A DNA stretch of 33,579 nucleotides, taken from positions 1 through 33,579 of the forward strand of contig CALGDE010000107.1 in assembly GCA_937883785.1 (NCBI GenBank), written 5' to 3'. This DNA comes from an uncultured cyanobacterium. Lineage in GTDB: Bacteria; Cyanobacteriota; Cyanobacteriia; CACIAM-69d. Made by a program: the position numbers and the translations under genes. A model generated the notes under the pieces. The model was not told the DNA's origin. It did no database searches and was given only the letters and a program-made list of their open reading frames with translations. Of the stretch, positions 26,655 to 28,816 are shown piece by piece; position 1 is the first letter of the stretch, and each line of letters opens with the position of its first letter.

Positions 26655-26670
26655 CGCTCAATATCAAGCG
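26655..26670 (-). terminator. possible weak terminator overlapping the hetR stop
   Basis: On the minus strand CGCTTG/TGAGCG-like arms overlap the stop codon and are followed by CTTTTA. The stem is short and depends on wobble pairs, so support is weak. No better hairpin is visible between hetR and the tRNA gene. Confidence 0.25.
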
Positions 26671-27572
26671 TTATCCTCGTCGCGGTGACCCACGCCCATT
26701 TGCAACACCATCGGCACCCCATCATCGTCGTGGTACCGATCCGCCCAATCCCGCAGCAAATTATCCAAATCTGCCAGGGCATCGCCAATGCGATCCTCCG
26801 CAATTTCCAACTCTTCCAGTGCCCGGAATGTGTCCCCGCGCGACTCGGACCAATCTTTCCGCAACCGGAAAAACTGCGCCGTATCTTCCACCATGGCCAC
26901 CGTCCGAGCTTCCTGGTCCGCCGGGGTCCAATAGGACGATCGCGTCAAGGCATAAAAGGGCATTCCCCAAGGCGAGTCGATACGCAACACCGTGCCAGAA
27001 AACAGCAAGCGACGGCGAATATGCTCCGTCAGTGCCTCGCTTAATGCCATCTGCCGTTCAGGTGGGAATGTTTCCTGCGATCGCCGATGGAGGAACTCAA
27101 TCAGCTCCATAAACTGGAACGAGTTCAACACTTGAGCGTCAGGCAACGTGTCCGGAAGCTTATCTTCTAAGTGCCGCTTTTCTTCGCCGGTCAAACTATT
27201 ATTGGAAATGCGCGATCGCCCCGGCTGCCATGGATGGCGCTCTAGCCACACCGCCGGCAGCTGAATCAAATATCGTGGCTCCTGGGACCCGAGCATCTTT
27301 AGCAAGGTTCCCTTCGTCAGCGCCTCCCGTATTTCCTCAACGATCACCTTAACCCGCTTGGATTCGATGTGGTGCAGGTAGCCCGTATGGCGCAAATTTT
27401 CCCCTTGCTCCATATAGGTCATGTAAATGGCACACTTTGCCGCCGTCGCCGCCGCATCCAAAAATGCCCCATGGCGATGACCGCTCTTGCGCATGGCGCT
27501 AAACGCCAAAAACATCAGAATGCGATCCATCGCGCTCGAGCTTAGCTTCTGGATTAACTCAATGTCTTTCAC
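26664..27572 (-). CDS. hetR: heterocyst differentiation regulator HetR
   Basis: HetR is the DNA-binding dimer that triggers heterocyst differentiation in Anabaena. It also occurs in filamentous cyanobacteria without heterocysts, where its role is less clear. The 302-aa length matches the family. The N-terminal DNA-binding region [18 protein letters not shown] (30-47) is almost unchanged, as are [14 protein letters not shown] (93-106) and [15 protein letters not shown] (197-211). S151 corresponds to the Anabaena Ser152. R223, E253 and E254, which line the RGSGR-peptide pocket, are kept. The C-terminal domain (about 215-302) is more divergent. The start is a GTG giving [11 protein letters not shown] patX gene lies 1 kb upstream in the same orientation. 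Confidence 0.97.
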
Positions 27573-27850
27573 AAAACCCCCAAGTGGTGCGACAGTGCGG
27601 AACGAAATATTATCGTGGTCCTGGTGTTAAATGGGCACCAGCCTGGCTGCCCGGTGATCGCCCTTAATCCAGCAACCCTTGAATTCTGCGATTAACTTTT
27701 GCAGTCAACCAACTTGCGCCTACTGATGTGCCCCTGATGGACCGACAGGGTGAAAAATCGAAAATGATGCGCTGAAAGACGTCAGACCAACCGCTATTTG
27801 AAATGGTGACTAGCGCCAGTATTTAGTGAAGCTCCCTTTGTAATTTTGCC

Positions 27851-28144
27851 TCAAAGGTCGGTAACCCTGTCGGCGATATCAGTATAACCACGTAGATGTC
27901 CTTGCTGCTCCAAATTATTTTCTAAATCATCACAGTCACAGCTACGGTCAATCAATATCAGCCGTAATTTAACCTTTAGTGGTGCAATGGTGGCGCAACG
28001 TTCGCTTTCGGCAATGGCAAGGTTTAAGACGCTATTTCTAGCGGCATCCGCATCATAGCCTCCCTTCTGGCAGTGTAAGGCGCTGGGCGTTAGACGTTGC
28101 TTGAATGAAATAATATTCGAAGAAAAACGGCTCGTATTACCCAC
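27851..28144 (-). CDS. doubtful ORF, 97 aa, between patX and hetR
   Basis: This frame starts with GTG and has no good ribosome binding site. It encodes a cysteine-containing, acidic-tailed protein. The RNSVLNLAIAESERCATIA stretch faintly recalls the RNSLxLA...TIAFP segment of macrodomain proteins, but the glycine-rich loop that should follow is missing. It could be a gene remnant or chance coding within the long hetR leader. Low trust. Confidence 0.2.
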   Translation of the reverse strand: MGNTSRFSSNIISFKQRLTPSALHCQKGGYDADAARNSVLNLAIAESERCATIAPLKVKLRLILIDRSCDCDDLENNLEQQGHLRGYTDIADRVTDL

Positions 28145-28245
28145 AATCCATCAAAAGCATTGAAGAAAGGTTAGTGGCAGCGGTGTTTTCTTCAGAATTG
28201 TTGTTTGGGGGCGCTTTTTTTAGTCCAGGGCACCGATTAAACCCC

Positions 28246-28280
28246 TAAAGCCCACTGTTGTAGACCAACAGTGGGCTTTA
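28246..28280 (-). terminator. perfect 15-bp hairpin between patX and hetR
   Basis: TAAAGCCCACTGTTG and CAACAGTGGGCTTTA pair without mismatch around a 5-nt loop. The structure fits a bidirectional terminator that ends the patX transcript about 300 nt past its stop and insulates hetR. Neither side has a clean U-run, so an RNA-processing or regulatory hairpin is also possible. Confidence 0.55.
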
Positions 28281-28478
28281 AGATTGAATTTTTATAGTCA
28301 ATGTAATAATTGACACTCTTTTGGTGACTCATCCAGGTCAACTTAGCTAAAACGTCTGAGGGTCAGCGATTTCCCCTGCGATTTTGGCTAATGACCGATT
28401 TTGCTTACGGTATTTTTTTCACGGTTCCATGCACAGTGGAGAAAATCCTGATGATTGCTTTGGACTCGCTGTTGTGAT

Positions 28479-28514
28479 CTCAATTGAGGGGCAATTCTCA
28501 ATCGAGGGGCAATC
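28479..28514 (+). repeat. 18-bp tandem repeat with GAGGGG core
   Basis: CTCAAT(T/C)GAGGGGCAAT(T/C) occurs twice head to tail with two differences, just downstream of the patX stop. GAGGGG equals the half-site of the inverted repeat that HetR binds upstream of hetP in Anabaena. Here the copies are direct, not inverted. Confidence 0.8.
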
Positions 28515-28582
28515 GTATTTGTTCTCTTACGTATTTCCGCTAGATTGCGATCGCCATATTCTGCGATAGCTGGAAAAGCGTT

Positions 28583-28816
28583 CTACGCTTCGGTGGCAAG
28601 GATATGACGAATCATTTGGCGACGGCCGCTGCCTCGGTGGGAGGTGCGGGTGCGACGGCGATAGCGACGGCGAGCTTCGGTAGAGTTGACGGGAGTCTCT
28701 TGGTAGGAGGTTTCTTGGAATTGGTTAACTCCAGCTTGGGCAGGAACTGCTTCGGCGAAAGCAGCGCCGGCGGACAGGGCTAGGGCAACGATTAGGGTGG
28801 AAGGGCGTAGGTGCAT
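28583..28816 (-). CDS. patX: PatX-type HRGSGR peptide precursor
   Basis: The 77-aa product has a secretory signal peptide: short polar-basic start (MHLRPS), hydrophobic core (about 7-22) and a likely cleavage after PAQA at 28. The mature part is arginine-rich (49-66) and contains HRGSGR at 60-65. RGSGR is the active pentapeptide of the PatS/HetN inhibitors of HetR. Signal-peptide proteins with an RG(S/T)GR motif near the C-terminus are the PatX family, which co-occurs with hetR in filamentous cyanobacteria. The sequence continues 12 residues past the motif (RQMIRHILATEA). It is transcribed toward hetR, 1 kb away. Expected role: exported and processed to a peptide that binds HetR and limits its activity. 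Confidence 0.9.
   Translation of the reverse strand: MHLRPSTLIVALALSAGAAFAEAVPAQAGVNQFQETSYQETPVNSTEARRRYRRRTRTSHRGSGRRQMIRHILATEA

Follow-up and report, generated by a model that had tools for sequence, protein, structure and literature searches.

The 33,579-bp window analyzed here, which is contig C107 of a genome of 4.84 Mb estimated to be 99.99% complete, carries hetR and a short upstream gene for a divergent PatX precursor; the two genes, their homology and synteny, selection on the short gene, and the residues of the HetR peptide pocket are shown by the present analysis. We consider it likely that the pair forms the patX-hetR module of a Limnothrix-family filament that does not fix nitrogen, in which an exported and trimmed PatX peptide would release HetR from DNA. 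The identity of the pair, proposed in an initial annotation of this DNA, is upheld by homology, by the shared arrangement in a sister species, by purifying selection, and by the conserved pocket. Its designation as an "ancestral" module is an already published view rather than a new one (PMC7761841, PMC12756182). A patX-hetR pair older than heterocysts was proposed in 2018 by Elhai and Khudyakov (as cited in PMC7761841 and PMC11298460), and because pairs in non-heterocystous filaments were already published there, according to the same two citing papers, our core finding is not new in principle: the pair is right in kind and adds details to a known theme.

The PatX precursor and the HetR peptide pocket

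The host belongs to a family that includes Limnothrix sp. CACIAM 69d (G045) and is separate from the large heterocyst-forming family. In the host genome, nifD had no match and nifH had none above the cutoff (best score, 229 bits versus a cutoff of 394), and the sub-cutoff nifH match is probably the chlorophyll-synthesis protein ChlL. Based on the lack of nifH and nifD and on placement in the Limnothrix family, the host very probably does not fix nitrogen and does not form heterocysts, the condition on which the initial annotation had called the pair ancestral.

Table 1. Features of the patX-hetR locus and related loci (positions refer to the window unless a contig or locus is named).
Feature	Position	Strand	Details or basis
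hetR	26664-27572	minus	302 aa, GTG start
Perfect hairpin between patX and hetR, 18 bp, terminator-like	28243-28283	minus	z = -6.4
patX, divergent PatX precursor	28583-28816	minus	ATG start, 77 aa, reads MHLRPSTLIVALALSAGAAFAEAVPAQAGVNQFQETSYQETPVNSTEARRRYRRRTRTSHRGSGRRQMIRHILATEA
Putative Sec signal sequence, PatX residues 1-22	28751-28816	minus	MHLRPSTLIVALALSAGAAFAE; judged by eye
Constrained C-terminal cassette, PatX residues 46-77	28586-28681	minus	STEARRRYRRRTRTSHRGSGRRQMIRHILATEA; sister-species codon comparison
HRGSGR, presumed HetR-binding hexapeptide, PatX residues 60-65	28622-28639	minus	sequence motif
Longer PatX peptide around HRGSGR			HRGSGRRQMIRHILATEA
36-bp block about 130 bp upstream of patX	28944-28979	minus	5' AACCAGTCAAAAAACTGACACCCCATCTCCGTATTC 3'
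Limnothrix-genus patX loci	L134 (G045:C9), L135 (G033:C13), L136 (G387:C39)
FAD-dependent monooxygenase-like protein, 507 aa	G000 contig C109, ends at 38731; L162:8732-10255	minus	PF01494

As claimed initially, a 77-codon frame encoding HRGSGR is present upstream of hetR on the same strand (Table 1). By eye, its N terminus has a basic start, a hydrophobic core, and AxA sites, with a putative cleavage at MHLRPSTLIVALALSAGAAFA/EAVPAQA. The protein is 86% identical to that of the sister species (G386), with a dN of 0.088 and a dS of 0.417 (dN/dS about 0.21). Residues 1 to 45 carry 7 synonymous and 11 nonsynonymous codon differences between the two species, and residues 46 to 77 carry 8 and 0, respectively. 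This constrained cassette includes an Arg-rich stretch, RGSGR, and the twelve residues C-terminal to RGSGR, and constraint extending past the pentapeptide appears to be a new detail. PatX homologues were found in all six family genomes searched (the window genome, the sister species, and four more), with the pattern R-x-x-R-x-S-[HY]-RGSGRR-[QDE] retained across the family. When 15 PatX-like proteins were aligned, RGSGR was the sole invariant stretch. By chance, a same-strand ATG frame of 40 to 150 aa with RG[S/T]GR upstream of hetR arose at a rate of 0.0007 per shuffle, as estimated by dinucleotide-shuffling the 2.5 kb preceding that gene 3000 times.

The window PatX scores 15.7 bits against the NCBIfam PatX model NF047413, below the cutoff of 30, and a Pfam search of the 77-aa protein returned no match. 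Other proteins score 92 (Aphanizomenon), 45 (Lyngbya aestuarii), 35 (Arthrospira), and 25 (Trichodesmium), and several more hetR-linked PatX-like proteins also fall below the cutoff at 11 to 24; this cutoff is best suited to heterocyst formers. Our assignment is therefore based on motif, size, position and synteny, and selection, and not on the NF047413 score, and together these indicate that the 77-codon frame is a real gene and its product a divergent PatX. HetR, which matches the equivalog model NF009718 over its full length, scores 500.7 bits against a cutoff of 489.

HetR of the window also aligns over its full length with the solved structures 3qod and 4hri (E values of 3e-139 and 3e-137), and the DNA-contact residues listed in PMC4649674 (R62, H69, E71, K73, R74, and K76 in Anabaena numbering) are all retained. 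In the structure of the HetR hood domain with PatS6, the peptide is held by E253, D270, and D278, its N terminus is captured by E254 and D256, and R223 lies near its C-terminal carboxylate; the substitution D256A shifts the Kd for the peptide from 12 to 427 nM (PMC4649674). The initial annotation stated that R223, E253, and E254 are kept, and all three are indeed present in our alignment of 104 HetR sequences, as are D270 and D278, but it overlooked that D256 is replaced by E. Across the 104 sequences, R223, E253, D270, and D278 are invariant; 102 have D at position 256, and the only 2 with E are those of the window and the sister species, which belong to one genus. D256E thus appears to be a conservative, genus-specific pocket change and a new detail, and it could weaken capture of the peptide N terminus. 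Separately, E254 is changed to A or T in 4 of the 104 sequences (L137 of genome G135, L117, L066, and L089), which include one genus from the window's family.

These observations bear on three other explanations. If the 77-codon frame were a chance or decayed frame and hetR stood alone, the low score on the curated PatX model and the missing Pfam match would be expected; however, the dN/dS, the final 32 codons without a single nonsynonymous difference, the homologues in every family genome searched, and the low chance rate make this scarcely credible. It is just as hard to believe that the pair sets the heterocyst pattern of a heterocyst-forming host. Although the same genes regulate this pattern in Anabaena (PMC7761841), nifD and nifH are lacking at the cutoff from a nearly complete genome, and the host sits in the Limnothrix family, apart from the large heterocyst-forming one.

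An unlikely explanation, but one that deserves some weight, is that PatX is a secreted regulator acting mainly through a target other than HetR in this lineage, with its linkage to hetR simply inherited. The sole patX knockout study in a non-heterocystous strain, that of Leptolyngbya BL0902 published in 2024, found the effects of patX to be largely independent of hetR, and loss of both genes gave a phenotype like that of the patX mutant, not the hetR mutant (PMC11298460). This result, like the low NF047413 score, D256E, and the lack of DIF1, also weighs against the module reading favored here. The location of patX away from hetR in Limnothrix points the same way. However, RGSGR is retained, as is the HetR peptide pocket apart from D256E, and RGSGR is the only part that does not vary among the aligned PatX-like proteins, which argues against this explanation.

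Linkage of patX and hetR and the sequence between them

The genes patX and hetR are separated by 1010 bp in the window and by 1321 bp in the sister species, where patX is likewise upstream on the same strand. They are also linked in genome G135 but not in Limnothrix: the two are on separate contigs in both genomes of this genus in which both genes could be placed (G045 and G033), and in one of these (locus L038) no RG[S/T]GR frame was found within 10 kb of hetR. Loss of patX-hetR linkage in Limnothrix appears to be a further new detail. The hairpin between the genes (Table 1) recurs in the sister species, where a compensatory change (A-T to G-C) preserves the pairing, and because this conserved element stands between patX and hetR, we infer that they have separate transcripts. 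A 97-aa frame between the genes (27851-28144) was dropped, as it aligned poorly and contained indels in the sister species.

In the window, neither the 500 bp preceding patX nor the 1 kb preceding hetR contains an exact copy of TCCGGA (DIF1); none was found ahead of the sister-species patX, and the element is also missing near patX in the non-heterocystous loci examined; it is present upstream of patX in two Limnothrix-genus genomes (G045 and G033). Since DIF1 is missing near patX at such loci, it does not define PatX outside heterocyst formers. The 36-bp block upstream of patX is nearly identical in the sister species and is possibly a promoter or operator of patX. Searches upstream of patX and hetR gave no convincing GGGN5CCC or NtcA-type (GTAN8TAC) sites, scans of the region for sigma-70 promoters and terminators gave matches no more often than expected by chance, and an Rfam search of the region identified only a tRNA.

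Across other cyanobacteria, a small RG[S/T]GR frame is present near hetR in 24 of 80 named hetR loci, within the flanking DNA examined. In the 19 of these loci outside the Nostocales, the frame invariably precedes hetR, on its strand, at a distance of 0.2 to 4.6 kb. Some PatX-like precursors upstream of hetR carry RGSGR more than once, with three copies at L040:948-1241, four at L043:2207-2617, and two at L060:9315-9563 (Lyngbya aestuarii BL J), and in this they resemble a multi-copy prohormone.

A flavoprotein with an RGSGR tail

Outside the window, the FAD-dependent monooxygenase-like protein of contig C109 (Table 1) ends exactly in QTLPYRGSGR-stop and lacks an evident signal sequence. The sister-species protein (L181) shares these last ten residues; their codons show 5 synonymous differences and 0 nonsynonymous ones, the stop codon has changed, and the linker before the tail has 5 nonsynonymous differences in 18 codons plus an indel between the two species. 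Homologues in other genera, including those of the same family, have unrelated C termini. Our survey of RG(S/T)GR combined partial sampling of matches in the host's own genome with a full stop-adjacent scan of four family genomes, and the scan found no other likely gene with the motif directly before the stop. Based on residue frequencies, about 0.01 to 0.02 proteins ending in RG(S/T)GR are expected per genome. Fourteen other stop-adjacent candidates, all of 160 codons or fewer and overlapping longer reading frames, were taken as chance. A flavoprotein with an RGSGR tail was not mentioned in the literature searched, and the tail appears to be a new detail.

We tentatively suggest that this tail might be a second HetR ligand in the genus, a post hoc reading based on two species. 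It may conceivably offer a ready free carboxylate, the group that lies near R223 in the HetR-peptide pocket. One could further speculate, with some doubt, that the D256E HetR would read both an exported PatX peptide and an enzyme tail, coupling metabolism to cell fate, which may resemble what the enzyme-like HetN does in Anabaena. Were the tail to bind HetR, RGSGR would have become attached independently to yet another unrelated protein, besides PatS and HetN.

Proposed mechanism and comparison with known systems

In Nostoc PCC 7120, PatX is exported and processed by the peptidase PatP, with export and PatP both being required, and the PatX6 peptide (HRGTGR) binds HetR at 88 nM and removes HetR from DNA (PMC12756182, published in 2025). 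PMC7766704 lists PatP (Alr1666) among the penicillin-binding proteins, and S13-family peptidases are present in the host genome. By analogy with Anabaena and Nostoc, the window PatX precursor would be exported through its putative signal sequence and then cut on either side of HRGSGR, the adjacent arginines being plausible sites. The resulting XRGSGR peptide would enter the same or a neighboring cell and bind the HetR hood domain at E253, D270, D278, and R223, and peptide-bound HetR would be released from DNA. The terms "diffusible" and "patterning", used initially for the pair, are inference: in Anabaena, PatX is reported not to be required for normal intercellular signaling (PMC7761841), and the effects of patX in Leptolyngbya BL0902 were largely independent of hetR (PMC11298460). 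What HetR does in a heterocyst-free host is more speculative; it probably governs a different cell fate or the breakage of filaments. The original role of the pair has been conjectured to be trichome breakage via necridia (PMC7761841).

The role of HetR and its peptides in heterocyst-free filaments is an acknowledged question, and the pair described here contributes a clean Limnothrix-family member. The locus also offers a natural pocket variant (D256E) and a PatX constrained past RGSGR, both of which suit binding assays.

The closest counterparts are the non-heterocystous PatX-HetR pairs of Arthrospira, Trichodesmium, Lyngbya, and Leptolyngbya BL0902, which share a small, putatively exported RGSGR protein, its same-strand upstream position, and a conserved HetR. 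The window differs from these in its 1010-bp gap with a hairpin, its lack of DIF1, its Arg-rich PatX with constraint beyond RGSGR, and its D256E HetR. Whereas co-transcription from a DIF1 promoter was proposed for Leptolyngbya BL0902 (PMC11298460), separate transcripts are suggested here. The PatX-PatP-HetR system of Nostoc PCC 7120 has in common with the window a signal sequence (putative here), an H-RG(S/T)GR hexapeptide, and the HetR pocket; however, it uses RGTGR in a heterocyst context, and the window encodes RGSGR in a host that very probably lacks heterocysts. Anabaena PatS and HetN share the RGSGR pentapeptide, which acts on HetR there. PatS ends in RGSGR, HetN is enzyme-like with an internal RGSGR, and the flavoprotein of the window's genus combines both traits.
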